A stretch of DNA of 64,000 bases from Akkermansia muciniphila (GTDB taxonomy: Bacteria; Verrucomicrobiota; Verrucomicrobiia; Limisphaerales; UBA9464): the NCBI GenBank assembly GCA_945898055.1, contig CAMDGV010000003.1, forward strand, positions 1 through 64,000, read 5' to 3'. A program made the position numbers and the translations under genes. Positions 28,026 through 39,349 of this stretch are shown here, piece by piece (the first letter of the stretch is position 1; each line of letters starts with the position of its first letter). The notes under the pieces were generated by a model. It was not told the origin of the DNA and searched no databases. It saw nothing but the letters and a program-made list of their open reading frames with translations.

Positions 28026-28844
28026 ATGGGGGGGGTGGCTGTTTCATCTCAACTCTTTCTCCAAACCAAGCGTTTGTTGCCTGGCGAGGAATGGAGTCCG
28101 CTCGAGAAAGGTTGGACTTTTGTTCAAGTGGGGTCGGGAGAGGCCTATGTCCTCGGCCCAAATCTAGCGATTGCGTGTCCGGCAGGGTCACTTTTTGTCA
28201 GTGCAGGTGGAGTGCCAGCGCAACTTCGATCTAGCCAAATCGGACCTTCGGTCATGCACTGGTTCCGCTTGGAAGCAGAGGCGATGTTTGGCGTCTTGAC
28301 CCTCCCAGAAAGACGCCGCTTGGATCAATCGGAGGCTGTGACACCGAAATTGCCTTGGGTATTATCGCCCGAAACAGAGGCCGCCCGTCAATTTGCTCGA
28401 GGTGTTCAAGCACCGGCTACCACCTCGCTTGGTCAGCGGAGTCGTTGGCTCGAAGTTGTGGCATTGGCGTTACTCCCAGCCGTATCTATACATCAGGAAA
28501 AACACGAAACCCATCTCGACGCGGGTGACCGGCTGGAAGAACTGGTGGCTTGTTTGACCGATTCCGAACTATTGGCATTGAGTTCAGGTCAACTAGCGGA
28601 GATCTGCCACTGTGAGAAGCGCCGGTTATTGCAGCTTTTTCGAGAGCGGATTGGCGTCAGTCTTCCAGTTCAACAGAGTTTTTGGCGCAAATCTAAAGCG
28701 TGCGCTTTGTTAGGTCAGCAAGGAGCAACCGTGGCGACGGTAGCGTTAGCTTGCGGTTATGCCGATCCTGATGCCTTTAGTGCTTGGTTTCGGCGGCAAA
28801 CAGGGATGTCCCCCCTTCCGTGGAAGCGTGAAAATTCAAAATAG
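28026..28844 (+). CDS. AraC-family transcriptional regulator
   Basis: A 272-residue cytoplasmic regulator. The N-terminal ~150 residues form a sensor domain without a recognisable ligand motif. The C-terminal ~95 residues form the double HTH of the AraC/XylS family; the second HTH reads TVATVALACGYADPDAFSAWFRRQTGMSP, with the family Gly-Tyr/Asp and Phe...Phe signature. It sits at the 5' end of a block of five same-strand genes (lipoprotein, exbB, exbD, receptor, surface protein) and is a natural candidate controller of them. The ATG at 28026 follows an AT-rich segment; a GTG at 28035 is also possible. Confidence 0.88.
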   Translation: MGGVAVSSQLFLQTKRLLPGEEWSPLEKGWTFVQVGSGEAYVLGPNLAIACPAGSLFVSAGGVPAQLRSSQIGPSVMHWFRLEAEAMFGVLTLPERRRLDQSEAVTPKLPWVLSPETEAARQFARGVQAPATTSLGQRSRWLEVVALALLPAVSIHQEKHETHLDAGDRLEELVACLTDSELLALSSGQLAEICHCEKRRLLQLFRERIGVSLPVQQSFWRKSKACALLGQQGATVATVALACGYADPDAFSAWFRRQTGMSPLPWKRENSK

Positions 28845-28919: not shown

Positions 28920-28973
28920 AGCCGCGACAAACTCCCGTAATGCCCCTGCCGATAGTTGAAGGACATGACTCAA

Positions 28974-29288
28974 ATGTCCTGCCTCAAGACGATCACCGTT
29001 CTCGTGACTAGCCTCCTGCTTGCAGTGGGTTGTGCTTCATCATCAGCCAAACTAGGTAAAGTTGGGTTGGGAATGACCCGTGAGGAAGTGGTGAAGACAC
29101 TCGGTCAACCGCACGCGCTTACTGCGCAAGGGAATGTGGAGTTTTTCACCTACAATCTTTTGAACAAGGGGGTTGGTGATATGAAGGAGTACGTGATTCG
29201 CATGCAGGCTGGAGTGGTTGAATCCTTTGGCGAACGCGCCAGTTTTGGCCCGACTCTCCTGAGTGTTACCAATGCACCAAGCCGCTAA
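28974..29288 (+). CDS. Small SmpA/OmlA-like lipoprotein
   Basis: A 104-residue exported lipoprotein: a short signal (MSCLKTITVLVTSLLLAVGC) ends in the lipobox LAVGC with Cys20 for lipidation, followed by SSS and a domain with VGLGMTREEVVKTLGQP, the pattern of SmpA/OmlA/BamE proteins. I chose ATG 28974 because a GAAGGA box (28958-28963) sits 10 bases before it; ATG 28965 and TTG 28956 are alternatives. It is the first gene before exbB (29 bases apart). It could be an assembly or sorting accessory for the unusual receptor downstream. Confidence 0.75.
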   Translation: MSCLKTITVLVTSLLLAVGCASSSAKLGKVGLGMTREEVVKTLGQPHALTAQGNVEFFTYNLLNKGVGDMKEYVIRMQAGVVESFGERASFGPTLLSVTNAPSR

Positions 29289-29317: not shown

Positions 29318-30094
29318 ATGGACTTTCAACCTCTCTTCGCTAGCGCCCTGACCTTTGCCTTTGAAAAGGCGACGATCGAAGGGAAAATGACCATTTCTGC
29401 CCTCGTTCTGGTTTCGATGATTTCGTGGTCGGTGATGATTTCCAAGGCTCGGCAGATTTTTACCGCACGAGGGGTCACCCGGAAATTTATGGCCGCCTAT
29501 CGGGCCTCGAAGGATCCCCTTGCCTTATTCCGTTCAAAGCAAGCGTTTGTGGGATCTCCAGCCTATCAGGTCTACGTCTCGGGCTGTGAAGAGCTAGAAT
29601 ATCACTTAGAAAATAACCCTTTGCAGATTAAGGGGCAGAAGCGAATCAGTGCGGAGTCTTTTCAATCGGTTCAAATCGCATTGGAACGGGGTTTAAGTGG
29701 ACAGTCACTTTCACTGGAAAAAGGCATGATTGTCCTCACCACTGCTGTCTCTGGAGGGCCGTTTATCGGATTGTTAGGAACGGTTTGGGGTGTGATGGAA
29801 ACCTTCTCCGGCATTGCGATGGCGGCCAGCGCGAGTTTGACCGCAATGGCGCCGGGGGTGGCTGGGGCATTGATTGCAACGGTCGTCGGACTGTTCGTCG
29901 CTATCCCAGCTATGTTTGCCTATAATTTGATGATCACTGCCATCCGCGGCATCACTCAAGAATTAGACAACTATAATTCCGAGGTTGCGACCGACTTTGA
30001 GCATAAGTATGTCGACAATCGAGCCTTGGCAGATGAGATCGCTGATGCCCTTCGTTCTTTGGAAGATCCGCGACGTCAGAAGGGCGCCGTGTGA
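29318..30094 (+). CDS. exbB: ExbB/TolQ/MotA-family proton channel subunit
   Basis: A 258-residue inner-membrane protein with three transmembrane segments (about residues 22-42, 145-165 and 185-208) and a cytoplasmic loop between the first two, as in ExbB. The conserved segment LGTVWGVMETFSGIA...LTAMAPGVAGALIATVVGLFVAIPAM identifies the family. ExbB forms the pentamer around an ExbD dimer and converts the proton gradient into force on TonB. The gene is the second of a same-strand set and its end overlaps exbD in a GTGA arrangement, so expression is coupled. ExbB is preferred over TolQ or MotA because of the TonB-type receptor next door. Confidence 0.92.
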   Translation: MDFQPLFASALTFAFEKATIEGKMTISALVLVSMISWSVMISKARQIFTARGVTRKFMAAYRASKDPLALFRSKQAFVGSPAYQVYVSGCEELEYHLENNPLQIKGQKRISAESFQSVQIALERGLSGQSLSLEKGMIVLTTAVSGGPFIGLLGTVWGVMETFSGIAMAASASLTAMAPGVAGALIATVVGLFVAIPAMFAYNLMITAIRGITQELDNYNSEVATDFEHKYVDNRALADEIADALRSLEDPRRQKGAV

Positions 30095-30540
30095 GTGGCT
30101 TCACTTCGCGTCGTGGGCGTAAGAAATTTTCCGTTTCGCACCATCATGCGATGGGTGAATTAAACATTACACCCTTACTAGATCTAGCCTTTGTCTTGTT
30201 GGTGATTTTTATCATCACCACCGCTCCATCAACCAACGATATCGACATTAATTTGCCTTCAGCCGGTCAGCAACCGCCGCAGAACCAAAGTAAACAAGAT
30301 ATCAATAATGTGACGGTCGATTCAGCTGGGAATGTTTTTTTCAATGCTGAACCTATTACGCTGAAGAAATTAGAAGACACGATTATTGCGTTTCGGAAGA
30401 CCAACCCTGATCTCAGCGTGGTGGTGCGTGGCGATGAGAATGTGAACTACCAGAAGGTGGTTCAGGTTCTAGATATTCTGACCAAAGCTAACGTGACAAA
30501 AATCGGTCTAGCGACCGATACAGCGGGTGCTTCCAACTAA
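30091..30540 (+). CDS. exbD: ExbD/TolR-family proton channel subunit
   Basis: A 149-residue bitopic protein with a single N-terminal transmembrane helix. The proton-accepting Asp31 lies in NITPLLDLAFVLLVIF, exactly in the family position, and the periplasmic domain (about 65-145) includes VVVRGDENVNYQKVVQVLD. It works with ExbB. Translation starts at GTG 30091, overlapping the stop of exbB by 4 bases, and the next gene begins 9 bases after its stop. The partner TonB is not a separate gene here; see the following gene. Confidence 0.93.
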   Translation: MSGFTSRRGRKKFSVSHHHAMGELNITPLLDLAFVLLVIFIITTAPSTNDIDINLPSAGQQPPQNQSKQDINNVTVDSAGNVFFNAEPITLKKLEDTIIAFRKTNPDLSVVVRGDENVNYQKVVQVLDILTKANVTKIGLATDTAGASN

Positions 30541-30549
30541 GGCCTCCCT

Positions 30550-33500
30550 ATGTCGCGTAAGGTTAAGAACGGCTCTGACAGGACGGGGTTAGCGATTTCT
30601 GTCGCTGTCCATATTGTGGCCCTGTCGGGATTGGCTTATTTGGCGCATCGTTCTGGATTCGTCCCGGCTGCCATTTACAAGATTACAGGAATTAAGGCAC
30701 CCGAAAAGCCTAAGCCTAAACCCAAGCCCCCAACTCCGCCGCCGAATGTTCCGCCGCCGAAGCAGGCTGAAATAGTCGAAGAGACGACGACGCCCCCGAG
30801 TGTTGTACCTGCGGCAGCCGCCCCACCGACGGCGAGTGCGGCTCGAACCGATGCGCCACCCGTCGCGGGGGGGGGAGTTGGTAATTTTTTTAAAACAGAA
30901 GTTCGTAAACCGGATGCCGCCCCAGTGAGAGCGATCCAAGGTAAACCGGGGACCGGTGCTGGCACGCTTGATGCGTCTAAATCAACTGCCTCGGCGACGG
31001 CCACCAAATCCGCCTTCGATGCCACCTCTACCAAGCCAAGTACGATTGCAGCGGTGCTGGAAGAGCGAAGAAGTGCGGCGAGCGCACAAGAGGCAGTGAG
31101 CAGTGAACAAATCGCTCGGAGCGGTGGCGGTGATGCCGCTCAGATAACCACAAAAATTACCGGAGTCATTGCTACTGAAAATAAGCAGATCGTGGTCCGC
31201 GGTTTGAATGATCGCTATAATATGGCGACTTTGAACGGCGGAGCGTTGCCGAGTGCCGATCCACGTCGCAGAGCGCCGCAATTGGACATGATTCCTTCGG
31301 CGATGATCGATAAAATTGTGGTCAGCAAAACCTTCACCCCCGATCTTCCCGGTGGGTTTGCAGGGGGTGCCGTTAACATTGTGACTCGATCCTTTCCAGC
31401 GAAAGCCTTTACGACGGTCACGGTCGGTTCTGCGGTAAATACGGAGACCAGTTTTAACGATGGCTTTCAACGGGTGGCCGGCGGGAAAAACGACTTTTGG
31501 GCCTTGGATGATGGAACTCGTGCGCTGCCGGCGGGAGCTTTAATTGAAGCTTCGGTCCTGACTGAAGCACAGAAACCATGGCGTCTTTCGAATCAACAAG
31601 ATTTGGGAAGTCAGCGGCTTGCCTTAGCCGAGTCCTACGACACGGCACTCCGCTCTTTTCGTAATAATTCTTTTGCTCCGACCGCTGGTGCACCCGGACC
31701 TAATTCCAATTTTGCTCTCTCCAGTGGCGATACGACTTGGTTGGGTGGCAAACGGGTTGGATGGTTCGCCACCTTCACTCAAGATCGTAGCTATCAGTTT
31801 AACCAAGGAGCTCTTCGTGGACGTTATTCGTACGGTCAAGACCCGGTCGATGGCGGCCCTCTTTTTCGCACCTCCGAGTTCAATCGTGATCAGTCGACCA
31901 TCAATAGTTCCTTTGGCGCAGTGGCCAGCACCGCAATCGAAATTGGTCCCGGCCACGAACTTTCCTTCGGCTTTGTTCACAACCAAAGTGCGCAGCAGTT
32001 TGCGATCGAAGAGAATGGTAAAACCGTCAACCAGTTCGACCCAGGATCCGTTGAGCGCACTCGGATCTATCAACTCAGTTATCGAGAACGATATCTTCAG
32101 AATTTTCAATTCAAGGGGCGGCATGAATTACGTGAGCTAGGTGCGGCCCAAGTTGATTGGAGCTATTCGATGGCCTCGACCGCGGAGAATTCTCCGGACG
32201 AGCGCATTTTCCCGATGATTCTTTTCCCCGTGGGAAATGGATTAACTAATATCGTCGCTCAGTCCGCCGAGCTTCCTAACATTAACCAACCGACTCGTTT
32301 CTTTCGCGATTCAACCGATACCAGTCGAAATCTGCGAGCGGATTTGACTCTTCCCTTTACTCCAAATAACGGGTTGGAGAGCTCGTTTAAGCTAGGGGTC
32401 AATTCCTTGGAATCAGAGCGTCAACTGCAAGAGCACCGTTTCGAATATGAGATTAGTCAAACCACGGGGGCTAATCAACGAGACATCGATACCTATGCCA
32501 ATTCCGTACTGAACTTCCAAGGTCAGCAATTTGTCACCAACTTCACCGGCAGCGGAACGACACGTCGAGCGGCTTTTAATTTTCCCAATGCCACCTTCCT
32601 GCGATCAGGGCTCCCCTCGGATGGGTATGGATACAGCGGAACTCAATCCATTCCTGCGGTCTATGCGATGGGAGACTTTTTCTTGCATCCAAAGTTCCGT
32701 TTAATTGGGGGCGCACGGGTTGAAAAAACCGACCTACAAGCTGCAGTTTTGCCTCGGAGCCAGATTCTTGGATCACCTTCTGGTGGACAAATTGCCACCA
32801 CCGACGTGATGCCGTCGGTCAGTGCGGTGATTCCGCTGACCTCACAGGTGAGCCTACGCGGGGGTTGGTCTAGTACGGTTGCGCGCCCGACTTATCGAGA
32901 GTTTGCTCCCTACGAATACTTCGACACCACCGACGGCCTCGCGTATCGAGGTAATGGAGCCTTGCGTCGCACCACCATCAATAACTTAGATGCTCGATTA
33001 GAATGGTATCCAGCGCCTGGCGAGTTATTTTCGTTCGCTTTATTTCAAAAGGATTTAACCGATCCAATTGAACCTTTGATCGCCGATAATGCTGCGGGAA
33101 TTGTGAGCTTTACAAATAATCCAACCGCGACAATCCGCGGCGTTGAACTTGAAGCTCGAAAGGGTCTTGGTTTTCTTGATCCGTCGTTTTCGGGTGTCTC
33201 CCTCGGTGGCAATTTTGCCTACATTCAGTCGGTCGTCGATGTCTACTATCCCTCAGGTGCGGGGGTCGCTCTTTATCAACGGCCTCTCTTTGATCAACCC
33301 GATTATATCGCCAATGTTGATCTCACTTGGGAGGTAGCCCGCCTCGGTTCTACTCTCTCGATTTCCTATGCTCGCAGCGCGCAACGATTGGCCGTCGACG
33401 GCGGGCAAGGCAGCCCTAACATCTACGAGCAGCCTGCCGATTCGCTGGATATCTTCCTGAGCCAAAAGTTGGGATCACGCTGGCGGTTAAGGTTGGGGGC

Positions 33501-33642
33501 AAAGAATTTAATGGATCCAGCTTTTCGCCAAATCTTAATTAATGATCTCGGCGAAACAGCCGAGCGATATGGCGATCGCTACGTGTTTCGTTCCTATCGA
33601 CGTGGCGTGACGGTCAGCCTCTCGCTCAGTGCCGACTTCTAA
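30550..33642 (+). CDS. TonB-dependent receptor with an N-terminal TonB-type inner-membrane anchor
   Basis: A 1030-residue protein in three parts. Residues 1-48 are a TonB N-terminus: one transmembrane helix (about 13-35) with Ser17-x3-His21 and Leu28 spaced as in the E. coli TonB S16/H20/L27 set, which contacts ExbB/ExbD. Residues 50-73 are a Lys/Pro-rich arm (EKPKPKPKPP...) followed by a flexible Ala/Thr linker to about 170. Residues about 175-285 are a plug domain (VVRGLNDRYN...SADPRRRAP, VVSKTFTPDLPGGFAGGAVNIVTRS), and 290-1030 form a beta-barrel ending in Phe (SLSADF). There is no cleavable signal peptide and no TonB C-terminal domain. It follows exbD directly, so the whole chain may be its own energised transporter. 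Confidence 0.9.
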   Translation: MSRKVKNGSDRTGLAISVAVHIVALSGLAYLAHRSGFVPAAIYKITGIKAPEKPKPKPKPPTPPPNVPPPKQAEIVEETTTPPSVVPAAAAPPTASAARTDAPPVAGGGVGNFFKTEVRKPDAAPVRAIQGKPGTGAGTLDASKSTASATATKSAFDATSTKPSTIAAVLEERRSAASAQEAVSSEQIARSGGGDAAQITTKITGVIATENKQIVVRGLNDRYNMATLNGGALPSADPRRRAPQLDMIPSAMIDKIVVSKTFTPDLPGGFAGGAVNIVTRSFPAKAFTTVTVGSAVNTETSFNDGFQRVAGGKNDFWALDDGTRALPAGALIEASVLTEAQKPWRLSNQQDLGSQRLALAESYDTALRSFRNNSFAPTAGAPGPNSNFALSSGDTTWLGGKRVGWFATFTQDRSYQFNQGALRGRYSYGQDPVDGGPLFRTSEFNRDQSTINSSFGAVASTAIEIGPGHELSFGFVHNQSAQQFAIEENGKTVNQFDPGSVERTRIYQLSYRERYLQNFQFKGRHELRELGAAQVDWSYSMASTAENSPDERIFPMILFPVGNGLTNIVAQSAELPNINQPTRFFRDSTDTSRNLRADLTLPFTPNNGLESSFKLGVNSLESERQLQEHRFEYEISQTTGANQRDIDTYANSVLNFQGQQFVTNFTGSGTTRRAAFNFPNATFLRSGLPSDGYGYSGTQSIPAVYAMGDFFLHPKFRLIGGARVEKTDLQAAVLPRSQILGSPSGGQIATTDVMPSVSAVIPLTSQVSLRGGWSSTVARPTYREFAPYEYFDTTDGLAYRGNGALRRTTINNLDARLEWYPAPGELFSFALFQKDLTDPIEPLIADNAAGIVSFTNNPTATIRGVELEARKGLGFLDPSFSGVSLGGNFAYIQSVVDVYYPSGAGVALYQRPLFDQPDYIANVDLTWEVARLGSTLSISYARSAQRLAVDGGQGSPNIYEQPADSLDIFLSQKLGSRWRLRLGAKNLMDPAFRQILINDLGETAERYGDRYVFRSYRRGVTVSLSLSADF

Positions 33643-33761: not shown

Positions 33762-33832
33762 AGTTTAATTTAAAACTAAAAATTGACTTGCTGAGTTCAG
33801 GTCGATGACAAACCAAACTAAAATTGATTCAG

Positions 33833-36800
33833 ATGAAAAAATATTGTTGGAGTCAAGGGCTTAAGGCAATCGCTGCCTTTATGCTCCTGCTCGTGTCGGA
33901 AAAGGCCTCGGCCGCAACGAACCATATATCAGGCTATTTATATGGTTCCCATCGTTGGGTCGCCACCAATTCTTATATTCTAGATGGCTTCACCTATGTG
34001 ATGAATAATGCTGTTCTCACCATCGACGCCGGTACGGTCGTTCAGGGATCGGCAGGAAGCGGTTCGTCTTCCACCGCCGCCAATGACTTCGGAAATCTCT
34101 ATGTTTGCGTCGGCGGAAAACTCAACGCGATCGGCACTCCGACTCGCCCGATTATTTTCACGTCCACTTCTGATGACGTCACCGATCCAGGCGATCTTAC
34201 ATTCCCAAGTCGCGGCCTTTGGGGTGGCATTGTTATTTTCGGCGCGGCTCGTTTGAATAATGCGGGCTGGACGACGAACTCGGTCAGCTATGATATCTAT
34301 GAAGGTCTCCCTGATCTGGCAGTGACCAACACCACAGTCGGGAGCCCCTACTTGGGGCAAGTGGATTATGTGCACCGCTTTGGAGGTTCCAATGACGAGG
34401 ATAGTTCTGGAGTTATGCGTTATGTTTCAGTGCGACATGGCGGCAAGAAACTGACCACCGATAAGGAAATTAACGGATGGTCTATGGGAGGTGTGGGGCG
34501 CGGGACAACGATGGAATATCTGGAGGCTTATTGTATTGCCGATGACGGCTATGAGTTCTTTGGTGGTTGCGTTAATACCAAGCATCTAGTGAGTGCCTTC
34601 AACGATGACGACGGCTTTGACACCGACCAAGGATACAACGGTAAGAATCAGTTTTGGTTTGGGATCCAAGAGGCCGGCGCGAAGGACAGTGGAGCGGAAC
34701 AGAACGGTCAACCTCAGGCCCCGGATGCTTATGTGACCAACGCTCTGCCCTTAGCCAACTACATCGTACAGAACGCCACCATGATTGGATCAGGAGCAGG
34801 CACAACCGGCAACGACGCCTTACGGTTTCGACGCGGGAACAAGGCAACTTGGCGGAACTCAGTGATCACCGACTTCGGCGGGGTCCGAGTACGAATCGAT
34901 GATGACGGTGAATCGACGCCCACGGTCGTTAACAATATCTTCTGGGGATTCAGCACCAATAGTAACGAGGATTACGGTAAAACCTATGTGCCAGCCGATA
35001 AGAATCCGGTCGAAAACCCGTTAATTCGTTCGATCGGCCGAACTCAGAATGGAAGATTAGATCCACGACCGATGGCAGGAAGCCCGGTCTTTACCGGAGC
35101 ACTTAATGTGGAGTCTGATGGATTCTGGAGCCCGGCACCCTTCAAGGGAGCCTTCGATGCGAATGACAATTGGGCCGACGGATGGACAGGTCTTGCCGCT
35201 GAAGGTTTTTTTGCGGCAAAAGGAGTCACTACTAATTACGTAAGTGGCTATCTCTACGGCACTCATACTTGGTCCGCTACCAATGTTTATATTCTAAACG
35301 GATTCACCTATATCATGAGTAACGCTGTCGTAAACATTGAGGCTGGCACCGTCGTAAAGGGCGTCTCAGGGAGTGGAACATCGAGCGTCTCTGCCAACGA
35401 CTTTGGTTGTTTATTTGTTGTTGCGGGAGGTAAGCTCAATGCCCGAGGCACCTCAGGGAACCCGATCATTTTCACCTCGGTGTCTGATGATGTGACCGAT
35501 CCGAGCGACCTCCCTTTTCCGACCCGAGGTCTTTGGGGCGGCATTGTGGTGTTCGGTAATGCGCGTTTGAATAATGCGGGCTGGACAACGAACTCTGTCA
35601 GCTATGATATCTATGAAGGTCTCCCTGATCTGGCGGTGACCAACACCACCTTTGGCAGTCCCTACGCGGGGCAAGTGGATTATTTGCACCGCTTTGGAGG
35701 TTCCAATGACGAGGATAGTTCTGGAGTTATGCGTTATGTTTCAGTGCGACATGGCGGCAAGAAACTGACCACCGATAAGGAAATTAATGGATGGTCTATG
35801 GGAGGTGTGGGACGCGGGACAACGATGGAATATCTCGAGGCTTATTGTATTGCCGACGACGGCTATGAGTTCTTTGGTGGCTCTGTCAATACCAAGTACT
35901 TAGTGAGTGCCTTCAACGATGACGACGGCTTTGACACCGACCAAGGATACAACGGTAAGAATCAGTTTTGGTTTGGGATCCAAGAGCCCGGCGCCAAGGA
36001 CAGTGGATCGGAACAGAACGGTCAACCTCAGGCCCCGGATGCTTATGTGACCAACGGCTTGCCTTTAGCCAACTACATCGTACAGAACGCCACCCTGATT
36101 GGATCAGGAGCAGGCACAACCGGCAACGACGCCTTACGGTTTCGACGCGGGAACAAGGCAACTTGGCGGAACTCAGTAATCACCGACTTCGGCGGGGTCC
36201 GAGTACGAATCGATGATGACGGTGAATCGACGCCCACGGTCGCTAACAATATCTTCTGGGGATTCAGCACCAATAGTAACGAGGATTACGGTAAAACCTA
36301 TGTGCCGGCCGATAAGAATCCGGTAGCGAATCCCCTTTTAGGAGGCATCAGCCGAATTCAAAACGGGAACTTGGATCCGACCCTGACCGCGGCAAGTCCG
36401 GCTTGGGCCTTTGGGGCAACTGCAACCGATGGGTTCCAAGCCGTCGCCTATGCGGGCGCCTTTGGTTCGGAAAACTGGGCACAAGACTGGACAGCCTTAG
36501 GATCTGAAGGGTTCTTCAAATTGACTCCGGTTACCGATTTACCAACCGGCCTCACGGGCCAGAACCAAGCTCCAAGCTTCACGCTACCGGTCACCAGAAA
36601 ATCTGCTGGGTCGAGTCTGGCCTGGACAAAGCTGTCTAATAACCACGATTCATGGAATGGGATATCCCTATCGACCAACGGCAGCGTGGTGGCGGTCACC
36701 TCCTCCTCCTCTTTGGTAGTTTCGAGGGACGGTGGCTTGACTTCAACCATCGAAGTGGTTCCAGGAACTGGCTCTTTCAGAGCCGTTGCGGTCTCAGCCA

Positions 36801-39349
36801 GTGGTTCGCAGATCCTAGTGGCCCGGGGCAATCGGTTGTATATCTACCGCAATGGCGCTTGGGCCTCGTCAACGAGCCCTTCAGCGAATTGGGTCTCAGT
36901 TGCCTCATCGGCTACTGGTACTCACTTGGTAGCTGCAGTTTCCAACGGTCAGATTTATTGCTCGACCGACTCCGGTTTGACTTGGACTGGGTATGCGACC
37001 GTTCAAGACTGGCAGGCGGTTACTTCCTCAGCTGATGGCACTAGGCTCGCAGCAGCGGCTTACAACGGAGCCATCTACACAACGGTCGACAACGGCAGAA
37101 ACTGGATTGCGCAGACCGTCGACGGTAGTGCAAATCGGACTTGGTCATCGATCGCATCGTCGGCCGATGGTTCCAAATTGGCAGCGACGGAAACGAACGG
37201 AAAACTCTATACCTCAACCGATGGCGGGGTGACGTGGACAGCGCGGAATTCTAACCGAGGGTGGTCGTCGGTCTCTATGTCTAGCGATGGCAAGTTCCTA
37301 GTGGCCGGTGTACTGGGTGGCGCGCTTTATTACTCGGAGGATTCGGGTGTGACTTGGACTGCCAAGGACCAGGAGCGAATCTGGGGTGGAGTTGCGATCG
37401 CTGGCGACGGCAGCAATGCTGTGGCAACGGTCAATGACGGTGGTTTATACCGCTCTATTGCCTACGATACAGAATCAACCTTAGCCGTCTTAGAAGACGA
37501 AGTGACGACCCGGCCTGGGTTTGCATCTAATCTTTCTGCCGGTCCCGCAAGTGAGGTATCCCAAGCTTTGAGTTTCGTTGTAACCACTAGTAATCCCGGC
37601 CTATTCGCCTCCGGGCCAACGATCAGTTCTACGGGTACATTGACTTTTACACCTACCCCCGAAGCCAGCGGCACAGCAGTGGTGCAAGTTTATCTCAGAG
37701 ACAACGGTGGCTCTAATTATGGTGGAACCGACCAGAGTGCTGTGAAGGTGTTTACTATAACAGTTGCTCCGGTGAACGACGTACCGGCAGTCAATTCGCA
37801 GACCGTTACGATCGACGAAGATGTTCAAAAACTTCTAACTTTGATCGGTACTGATGTAGAAGGAGCTAAGTTAACTTATACGGTAGTACGCTCGCCGGTA
37901 AAGGGGTCGCTGAGTGGTACTGGCACGAACTTAACTTATATCCCATTTGCGAATGCAAACGGAACCGACAGCTTCACCTATAAGGCTAACGACGGCGAGT
38001 TGGACTCGGCCCTCGCGACCGTATCAATTACGATCGCCGCGGTTAACGACGCGCCGGTGGTTAACGCTCTGGCGGTTGAGGCGATTGAAGACACGACTAA
38101 GCTAATCACCTTGGCGGGTACAGACGTAGAAGGGTCTGGGTTGTCTTACACCGTGGTGACCGGTCCGATCAACGGCACACTTACTGGGACGTCTCCGAAC
38201 TTGGTCTACTCTCCGAAGCCAAACGTCTTTGGTCTCGACAGTTTCACCTACAAGGCCAACGACGGTTCAGCGGACTCAGCCATCGTGACCGTATCGATTA
38301 CGATTGCGGCGGTTAACGATGCACCAATCGCTGGCAGACTGACGACTGTTGTCGTGGAAGACACAGCTAAGGCGATCACCTTGGTGGGTACAGACGTAGA
38401 AGGGTCGGTGCTGTCTTACACCGTGGTGACCGGTCCGACCAATGGCACACTGTCCGGTACATCGCCGAATCTGGTTTACTTGCCGAACCCGAATGTATCC
38501 GGGGCCGACAGCTTCACCTACAAAGTTAACGACGGCTCGGTGGACTCGGCCCTCGCGACCTCATCAATTACAATCGCGGCGGTTAATGACTCACCGGTGG
38601 CTCAAGCCCTGACGGTTGAGGCGATTGAAGACACGACTCAGGTGGTCACCTTGTCGGGTACAGATGTAGAAGGGTCAGTGTTGACTTACACCGTTGTGAC
38701 CGGTCCGACCAAGGGCACACTGTCCGGTACTCCGCCGAATCTGGTCTACTTGCCGAACCCGAATGTATCCGGGGCCGACAGCTTCACCTACAAAGCTAAT
38801 GACGGTTCAGCGGACTCGGCCCCAGCGACCGTATCAATTACAATTGCTGCGGTTAACGACTCACCGGTCGCGTTCAATGTATCGGTGAAGACAGAGCAGG
38901 GTTCCCGTACGGAATTCTCGTTGGTAGGTTCAGATCCTGATGGTTCTGAACTGACCTACGCACTGCTGACTCAACCGACGAAGGGGACCCTTTCTGGTAA
39001 CGCTCCAGACTTGATCTACACGCCGAATTCGAGTGCATCAGGGGCGGATACGTTCACTTACACGGTCAATGACGGCACTGAGACCTCTGCTGAGGCGACG
39101 GTTACTATTGAGATAGCTACAATCGAAGTGCCAATCCTGACCCTTATATCGAGTGATGGGGTGACACTGTCTTTGGAAGTGCGTGCATCGGAAGGTGCTG
39201 TAGTGACTGTTGAAGGTTCAACGGAACTTGGTATCTGGCTCGCGACGGGCAGCGAGGTAACCGGTAAAGGTATGAGCGTGCCTGTTCCGCTCTCCCTGAA
39301 GATTGATTCAAACGTGGAGGCTCGGTTCTGGCGCCTGAACATCCGGTAG
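33833..39349 (+). CDS. Giant secreted repeat protein: duplicated beta-helix-like module, propeller repeats and Ig/cadherin-like repeats
   Basis: An 1838-residue exported protein. The signal peptide is residues 1-28. Two copies of a ~438-residue module follow, each with TIDAGTVV-type strands, GGNL/IFTS, GGSNDEDSSGVMRYV and EINGWSMGGVG; this is the beta-helix-like family commonly found beside TonB receptors in Bacteroidetes and Gammaproteobacteria. A third region (about 920-1210) holds BNR/propeller repeats with SSADGTKLAA. Five ~90-residue Ig/cadherin-like repeats (about 1315-1760) each begin near VNDAPV and contain GTDSFTYKANDG. A short C-terminal beta domain ends the chain. I prefer ATG 33833 over TTG 33824. 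Probable role: surface partner of the fused receptor. Confidence 0.88.
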   Translation: MKKYCWSQGLKAIAAFMLLLVSEKASAATNHISGYLYGSHRWVATNSYILDGFTYVMNNAVLTIDAGTVVQGSAGSGSSSTAANDFGNLYVCVGGKLNAIGTPTRPIIFTSTSDDVTDPGDLTFPSRGLWGGIVIFGAARLNNAGWTTNSVSYDIYEGLPDLAVTNTTVGSPYLGQVDYVHRFGGSNDEDSSGVMRYVSVRHGGKKLTTDKEINGWSMGGVGRGTTMEYLEAYCIADDGYEFFGGCVNTKHLVSAFNDDDGFDTDQGYNGKNQFWFGIQEAGAKDSGAEQNGQPQAPDAYVTNALPLANYIVQNATMIGSGAGTTGNDALRFRRGNKATWRNSVITDFGGVRVRIDDDGESTPTVVNNIFWGFSTNSNEDYGKTYVPADKNPVENPLIRSIGRTQNGRLDPRPMAGSPVFTGALNVESDGFWSPAPFKGAFDANDNWADGWTGLAAEGFFAAKGVTTNYVSGYLYGTHTWSATNVYILNGFTYIMSNAVVNIEAGTVVKGVSGSGTSSVSANDFGCLFVVAGGKLNARGTSGNPIIFTSVSDDVTDPSDLPFPTRGLWGGIVVFGNARLNNAGWTTNSVSYDIYEGLPDLAVTNTTFGSPYAGQVDYLHRFGGSNDEDSSGVMRYVSVRHGGKKLTTDKEINGWSMGGVGRGTTMEYLEAYCIADDGYEFFGGSVNTKYLVSAFNDDDGFDTDQGYNGKNQFWFGIQEPGAKDSGSEQNGQPQAPDAYVTNGLPLANYIVQNATLIGSGAGTTGNDALRFRRGNKATWRNSVITDFGGVRVRIDDDGESTPTVANNIFWGFSTNSNEDYGKTYVPADKNPVANPLLGGISRIQNGNLDPTLTAASPAWAFGATATDGFQAVAYAGAFGSENWAQDWTALGSEGFFKLTPVTDLPTGLTGQNQAPSFTLPVTRKSAGSSLAWTKLSNNHDSWNGISLSTNGSVVAVTSSSSLVVSRDGGLTSTIEVVPGTGSFRAVAVSASGSQILVARGNRLYIYRNGAWASSTSPSANWVSVASSATGTHLVAAVSNGQIYCSTDSGLTWTGYATVQDWQAVTSSADGTRLAAAAYNGAIYTTVDNGRNWIAQTVDGSANRTWSSIASSADGSKLAATETNGKLYTSTDGGVTWTARNSNRGWSSVSMSSDGKFLVAGVLGGALYYSEDSGVTWTAKDQERIWGGVAIAGDGSNAVATVNDGGLYRSIAYDTESTLAVLEDEVTTRPGFASNLSAGPASEVSQALSFVVTTSNPGLFASGPTISSTGTLTFTPTPEASGTAVVQVYLRDNGGSNYGGTDQSAVKVFTITVAPVNDVPAVNSQTVTIDEDVQKLLTLIGTDVEGAKLTYTVVRSPVKGSLSGTGTNLTYIPFANANGTDSFTYKANDGELDSALATVSITIAAVNDAPVVNALAVEAIEDTTKLITLAGTDVEGSGLSYTVVTGPINGTLTGTSPNLVYSPKPNVFGLDSFTYKANDGSADSAIVTVSITIAAVNDAPIAGRLTTVVVEDTAKAITLVGTDVEGSVLSYTVVTGPTNGTLSGTSPNLVYLPNPNVSGADSFTYKVNDGSVDSALATSSITIAAVNDSPVAQALTVEAIEDTTQVVTLSGTDVEGSVLTYTVVTGPTKGTLSGTPPNLVYLPNPNVSGADSFTYKANDGSADSAPATVSITIAAVNDSPVAFNVSVKTEQGSRTEFSLVGSDPDGSELTYALLTQPTKGTLSGNAPDLIYTPNSSASGADTFTYTVNDGTETSAEATVTIEIATIEVPILTLISSDGVTLSLEVRASEGAVVTVEGSTELGIWLATGSEVTGKGMSVPVPLSLKIDSNVEARFWRLNIR
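33929..36327 (+). repeat. 1314-base in-gene tandem duplication with a homogenised 3' part
   Basis: Copy 1 starts near 33929 and copy 2 near 35243, a constant offset of 1314 bases (438 codons). The first ~320 bases of each copy are clearly diverged, whereas 34251-35013 and 35565-36327 are almost identical at the DNA level, including third codon positions. This indicates either a recent partial duplication or gene conversion limited to that block. Confidence 0.85.
37763..39112 (+). repeat. Five tandem 270-base repeats encoding Ig/cadherin-like units
   Basis: Units of 270 bases (90 codons) start near 37763, 38033, 38303, 38573 and 38843, each beginning with a segment encoding (A)AVNDAPV or a close variant. 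Units 3 and 4 are the most alike in DNA. The period is exact, so unequal crossing-over can change copy number. Confidence 0.85.

Follow-up and report, generated by a model that had tools for sequence, protein, structure and literature searches.

Can one polypeptide carry the inner-membrane anchor of TonB at one end and an outer-membrane receptor at the other, and what would such a chain do? This question is raised by an open reading frame in the stretch of 64,000 nucleotides analysed here, in the following called the window. In the established picture of TonB, the helix docks on ExbBD, the arm spans the periplasm, and the plug is pulled by the C-terminal domain, which holds the receptor by its TonB box (PMC11658791, PMC5413942). 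The original prediction described the frame as a one-chain TonB-anchored receptor. Our analysis supports this description; a frameshift fails as an explanation of the locus, and a downstream start or a cleaved signal fits it poorly. The frame comprises the following parts.

30550..33642, plus strand: fused gene, TonB N-terminus and TonB-dependent receptor, 1030 aa (intact ORF, Pfam, order-wide homologues)
30550..30693, plus strand: TonB-type anchor, residues 1-48, transmembrane helix at about 14-32 with Ser17, His21 and Leu28 ([SA]xxxH, shuffle z, dN/dS)
30694..31044, plus strand: Lys/Pro-rich, presumably periplasmic arm, residues 49-165 (TonB-homologous to about residue 125)
31045..33639, plus strand: receptor part, residues 166-1030, with the C-terminus ...SLSADF (PF07715, PF00593)
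31069-31371, plus strand: plug (PF07715)
32266-33510, plus strand: barrel match (PF00593)

The frame starts with ATG and contains no internal stop. Pfam places the Plug domain at residues 174-274 (E 2.8e-8) and TonB_dep_Rec_b-barrel at residues 573-987 (E 2.7e-31), both above cut-off, while a TonB C-terminal domain is absent, since the same scan gave no match to PF03544 or PF13103. A plug and beta-barrel without the TonB C-terminal domain had been predicted, and Pfam bears this out. The receptor part is closest to TIGR01782 in NCBIfam, under the cut-off of that model, and shares 33-39% identity with conventional receptors that possess a signal peptide. The C-terminal aromatic residue expected of BAM substrates is present in 17 of 18 fused proteins. 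Sequence searches of the PDB, with the full chain and with an N-terminal profile, found no TonB; their single match, to the plug of the colicin I receptor, was weak. An AlphaFold2 model of the full chain, calculated as a single sequence without alignment, had a mean pLDDT of 29.8 and was not used.

That an error of sequencing or assembly merely fused two separate genes is hardly conceivable. Errors do occur in such metagenome assemblies: the closest named relative (L065, Pedosphaera sp. Baikal-deep-G220 metagenome assembly, Verrucomicrobiota; best segment 96% identical) carries a 1-nt insertion at codon 448, in the receptor part, and the fused homologue L022 (G109:C40) has an in-frame TAG in the arm at about codon 52, which might be a sequencing error or mark a pseudogene. 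Against an artefact, the fused frame is intact in numerous independent genomes, and in G098 it lies on a contig of 4.7 Mb. We searched genomes of the order, 116 and then 320, for proteins combining a TonB N-terminus with plug and barrel. Both searches together gave fused forms in about 37 genomes and 12 family-level groups, and therefore neither a hidden frameshift nor any other gene-joining artefact accounts for the fusion. Within the genus of the window 17 of 19 genomes, its own included, encode the fused form, and the two members without a match are only 74-77% complete. No close relative besides L065 was found among named genomes and no relative among viral contigs. In phylum- and class-wide samples, strict thresholds that would miss weaker fused members yielded only the protein of the window itself and stand-alone TonBs from its order.

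The residues Ser17, His21 and Leu28, claimed for the N-terminal helix, are present as stated. Residues 1-60 were aligned with other anchors and compared with block-preserving shuffles. Against eight stand-alone TonB anchors z ranged from 7.2 to 13.8, and in each of the eight comparisons 0 of 1000 shuffles reached the real score. The anchors of four TonBs from conventional operons and four of the genome's own TonB_C-type proteins gave z-values of only -0.8 to 1.1. Because the conventional-operon anchors show no similarity to the fused anchor, the conventional operon's own TonB was rejected as its source. The stand-alone proteins came from a search of the order's genomes with residues 1-217, in which many short frames of 220-280 aa matched along residues 3-106. 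Ten of these were read in their genomic context; each is a stand-alone TonB-like protein whose gene adjoins exbB and a pair of exbD genes, in the order exbB-exbD-tonB-exbD; both of the two tested contain the PF13103 TonB_2 C-terminal domain. Their alignment with the fused protein spans the anchor and the arm up to about residue 125, where the stand-alone C-terminal domain begins. Judged from these comparisons, the TonB likeness is one of homology beyond mere composition, and the first ~125 residues of the fused protein are homologous to stand-alone TonBs of ~220 aa from the same order. The predicted TonB-like N-terminus with its Lys/Pro-rich arm is thus confirmed by both the shuffle scores and the arm alignment.

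A helix with [SA]xxxH lies at residues 13-33, after a basic stretch, in 18 of 18 fused proteins, and its His, at position 20 or 21, is invariant. The linker between the transmembrane helix and the plug measures 133 aa in the window protein and 115-143 aa among the 18, with 13-24% Pro; as an extended polyproline helix this corresponds to about 36-44 nm and is long enough to span the periplasm. Purifying selection acts on both anchor and arm. A comparison of the window with L065 gave dN/dS values of 0.05 in the anchor, 0.12 in the arm and 0.05 in the plug (residues 449-1030 were disregarded because of the bad alignment past the L065 frameshift), and a second pair, L018/L019, gave 0.07, 0.04 and 0.01. 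The arm also contains an element conserved in fused proteins, T-x-R-A...DAP...GG..FF...R (30829-30906, residues about 94-119), in which A102, P103, F114 and R119 are invariant in 14 sequences.

An ordinary cleaved signal peptide, or a true start further downstream, with a TonB likeness due to chance composition, is very unlikely as an explanation of this N-terminus. The basic residues ahead of a hydrophobic helix do resemble a signal peptide, but shuffle z-values of 7-14, the invariant His in the helix core and the recognisably different N-termini of conventional homologues argue against it. An AxA-like triplet near the helix end occurs in six of the 18 fused proteins and is missing in 12. In addition, the window protein has no comparable hydrophobic stretch past residue 35: from there to the plug the maximum 15-residue mean hydrophobicity is 0.93, compared with 2.21 in the anchor, and nothing in this segment is hydrophobic enough for a clear export signal. 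The anchor, with its dN/dS of about 0.05, is conserved across every fused homologue. In its strong form this explanation is refuted, and both the downstream start and the cleaved signal appear to fit the sequences poorly. In the fused proteins a TonB-homologous anchor stands in place of a recognisable cleavable signal peptide.

The genes that could power such an anchor lie immediately upstream.

29318..30094, plus strand: ExbB, cognate motor stator, 258 aa (PF01618, E 2.1e-27)
30091..30540, plus strand: ExbD, cognate motor axle, 149 aa, with Asp31 in the transmembrane helix (PF02472, E 3.9e-30)

The original prediction placed exbB and exbD directly upstream and overlapping. Their position is correct, and the exbB stop and the exbD start overlap by 4 nt, but the fused gene does not overlap exbD and starts 9 nt past its stop. 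Thr155 and Thr188 of ExbB and Asp31 of ExbD are located within motifs bearing functional residues, and we take them to be the counterparts of the channel Thr residues and the transmembrane Asp in E. coli. The linkage with exbBD extends to the relatives: every other fused receptor examined has an ExbB orthologue immediately upstream, with 57-82% identity to the window ExbB, and ExbD is linked in other fused loci too. The fused gene occupies the tonB slot of these operons, behind exbB and exbD. ExbBs from the operons of stand-alone TonBs share 52-67% identity with the window ExbB, and a weakly resolved ExbB tree does not reject a single clade of fused-linked ExbBs (p-AU 0.22). Further upstream, an AraC-type regulator is encoded at 28026-28844, a relative of which precedes both the fused locus L046 and the conventional locus L064. 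Just 5' of exbB, at 28956-29288, a small protein resembling lipoproteins is encoded; its match to BamE is below threshold, and it is also found in L065.

Elsewhere in the order, orthologues of the receptor are conventional: they begin with a signal peptide and have a CarboxypepD_reg domain, and an EEYEVTA-like TonB box immediately precedes the plug. Of 22 conventional receptors, 19 match a strict TonB-box-like pattern before the plug and three have variants visible by eye; none of the 18 fused receptors matches. The box is lost in the fused form, and the arm sits where it would be. The pattern was composed after viewing the sequences, and therefore the contrast between conventional and fused receptors is the evidence, not the pattern itself. 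The genes upstream differ as well. All 12 conventional loci examined encode DUF3450, a TtpC-like ExbB, TonB and a TPR protein, together with ExbB and ExbD; the genes follow one another as DUF3450, TtpC-like, ExbB, ExbD, TonB, TPR. In the 18 fused loci and the window we found no DUF3450, TPR protein or conventional TonB, and only a weak ExbB-domain match. Downstream, both forms share a neighbour.

33824..39349, plus strand: conserved gene for a large exported partner protein (homologues next to the receptor in other loci, Pfam)

The partner protein begins with two related units of ~450 aa without a Pfam family, followed by a beta-propeller-like part and five Big_9/cadherin-like repeats. Among the loci examined, fused and conventional alike, nearly all have its homologue next to the receptor, usually downstream; the exceptions are contig ends, L063, and L049, where the partner is upstream. 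Many loci break off at contig ends just within the partner gene. The protein is possibly a cargo or a surface partner. As receptor and partner are kept in both forms, it is the energising part that differs. On a plug-barrel tree fused and conventional forms are intermixed, with six changes, at least four of them forced by well-supported branches, and a single clade of the fused form is rejected (p-AU 3e-5). Thus the energising module has been repeatedly exchanged at the junction of arm and plug, or repeatedly lost, although part of this switching could be tree error at open nodes. The phylogenetically independent pairs number four, too few for a significant sign test of linkage.

With good confidence we propose that the locus encodes a Ton system that is hard-wired by nature, the pull of ExbBD reaching the plug via a covalent link. 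The N-terminal helix would stay in the inner membrane, with Ser17 and His21 docked on the cognate ExbB-ExbD in a TonB-like manner, and the Pro-rich arm would cross the periplasm. BAM would fold the C-terminal part into an outer-membrane barrel closed by the plug. The N-terminus of the plug would be the covalent end of the arm, so that the proton-driven action of ExbBD could reach the plug directly. A single chain inserted in both membranes would then probably be a permanently coupled, motor-driven outer-membrane transporter. What the sequences show is the architecture, its conservation and purifying selection, the homology of each half, the place in the operon and the missing TonB box; the uncleaved anchor, the insertion in both membranes at once and the transmission of force, like any direction of transport or substrate, are inferred from them. 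The usual reversible clasp, formed by the C-terminal domain of TonB with the TonB box, would be absent because it is not needed. Without this clasp, gating would not proceed via exposure and release of the TonB box, and plug stability, control of the motor or substrate binding might take its place. Such a protein may have arisen when TonB residues 1-125 of an exbB-exbD-tonB-exbD type operon were joined to a receptor that used a separate TonB elsewhere. The own genome has four other TonB-C matches, three of them above cut-off, which counts against a hard-wired system; these separate proteins could in principle act on the barrel, yet no TonB box is visible in it.

Proteolysis between anchor and plug could likewise occur and would speak against a covalent link. 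Once the chain has arrived intact in the envelope, a periplasmic protease might cut the arm and so release a receptor of the ordinary kind from a TonB stub, with the anchor serving mainly for export or assembly. The arm is long and presumably flexible, and the AxA triplets mentioned above are signal-like. We nevertheless regard such a cut as unlikely, since the released receptor would have to be energised through a TonB box, which essentially all conventional and none of the fused receptors have, and the cut would leave the conservation of His21 and of a cognate ExbBD without a reason. A powered mechanical tether between the membranes is quite improbable. It would keep or constrict the envelope in a Tol-like manner and use the barrel as a handle instead of a transporter. 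The link between the membranes would be permanent, and ExbB and ExbD of the window score best with the NCBIfam models of TolQ and TolR, both below cut-off. Against a tether, the plug, the orthology to receptors with TonB boxes and the partner gene are all kept, suggesting that receptor function is unchanged, and by inspection the neighbours of related stand-alone TonB operons are unlike tolB or pal. Upstream of exbB in two such operons (L097 and L098, order exbB-exbD-tonB-exbD) lie the gene of a haemagglutinin-like exported protein of ~1500 aa and an ORF that resembles outer-membrane proteins; by their look the two may represent two-partner secretion.

If the hard-wired Ton system is real, motor and receptor, which otherwise meet only temporarily, appear to be linked for good in a group of Verrucomicrobiota. 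A review names as open questions whether TonB binds and releases in every cycle and whether ExbBD acts by pulling or by rotation (PMC11658791), and according to force spectroscopy the non-covalent clasp at the TonB box seems to hold until about half of the plug is unfolded (PMC5413942). A natural system without the clasp would be a direct test object for the question of binding and release. Should it transport, this would mean Ton-powered transport without TonB-box exposure, a TonB C-terminal domain or TonB release; release and TonB-box signalling would be dispensable. A freely spinning arm would be hard to reconcile with a fixed barrel, and the arm would not have to be able to turn without limit against the receptor. 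The architecture also raises the question of how the barrel is delivered to the outer membrane while its N-terminus is held in the inner membrane, and BAM would have to be able to assemble such a barrel. The fused protein could further serve as a one-chain template for structures of the complete path from motor to receptor.

Compared with TonB, the fused protein shares the N-terminal Ser/His helix, the Lys/Pro arm, the ExbBD genes immediately upstream and the homology to TonB_2 proteins of the order, but it lacks the TonB C-terminal domain, and its arm runs on into a receptor. With TIGR01782-like TonB-dependent transporters it has in common the plug and barrel, the C-terminal aromatic residue and the orthologous conventional receptors. 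In contrast to them it has no recognisable signal peptide, CarboxypepD_reg domain or TonB box and is covalently joined to its energiser. The Vibrio TonB2 system (TtpB2-TtpC2-ExbB2-ExbD2-TonB2-TtpD2), in which TtpB2 and TtpD2 are essential, shares its gene order with the conventional twin loci (PMC6957404). The fused form, in contrast, drops these extra parts and has another ExbBD subfamily. We found no description of a fusion of TonB with a receptor in the open-access papers searched, among them a review on TonB-dependent transport from 2024 and a survey on periplasmic force transducers from 2025; the original prediction knew of no example either.

VirB10 of type IV secretion likewise unites in a single chain a helix in the inner membrane, an arm through the periplasm and a part in the outer membrane. 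VirB10, however, forms an alpha-helical oligomeric ring in the outer membrane and lacks both the plug and the beta-barrel of a receptor. The Pfam scan of the fused chain gave no VirB10 match, and the likeness is one of analogy only. Both halves of the fused protein belong to known families, the TonB half without the C-terminal domain and the receptor half without the TonB box and, judged from the sequence, the signal peptide that define them, and their joined architecture is new to us.
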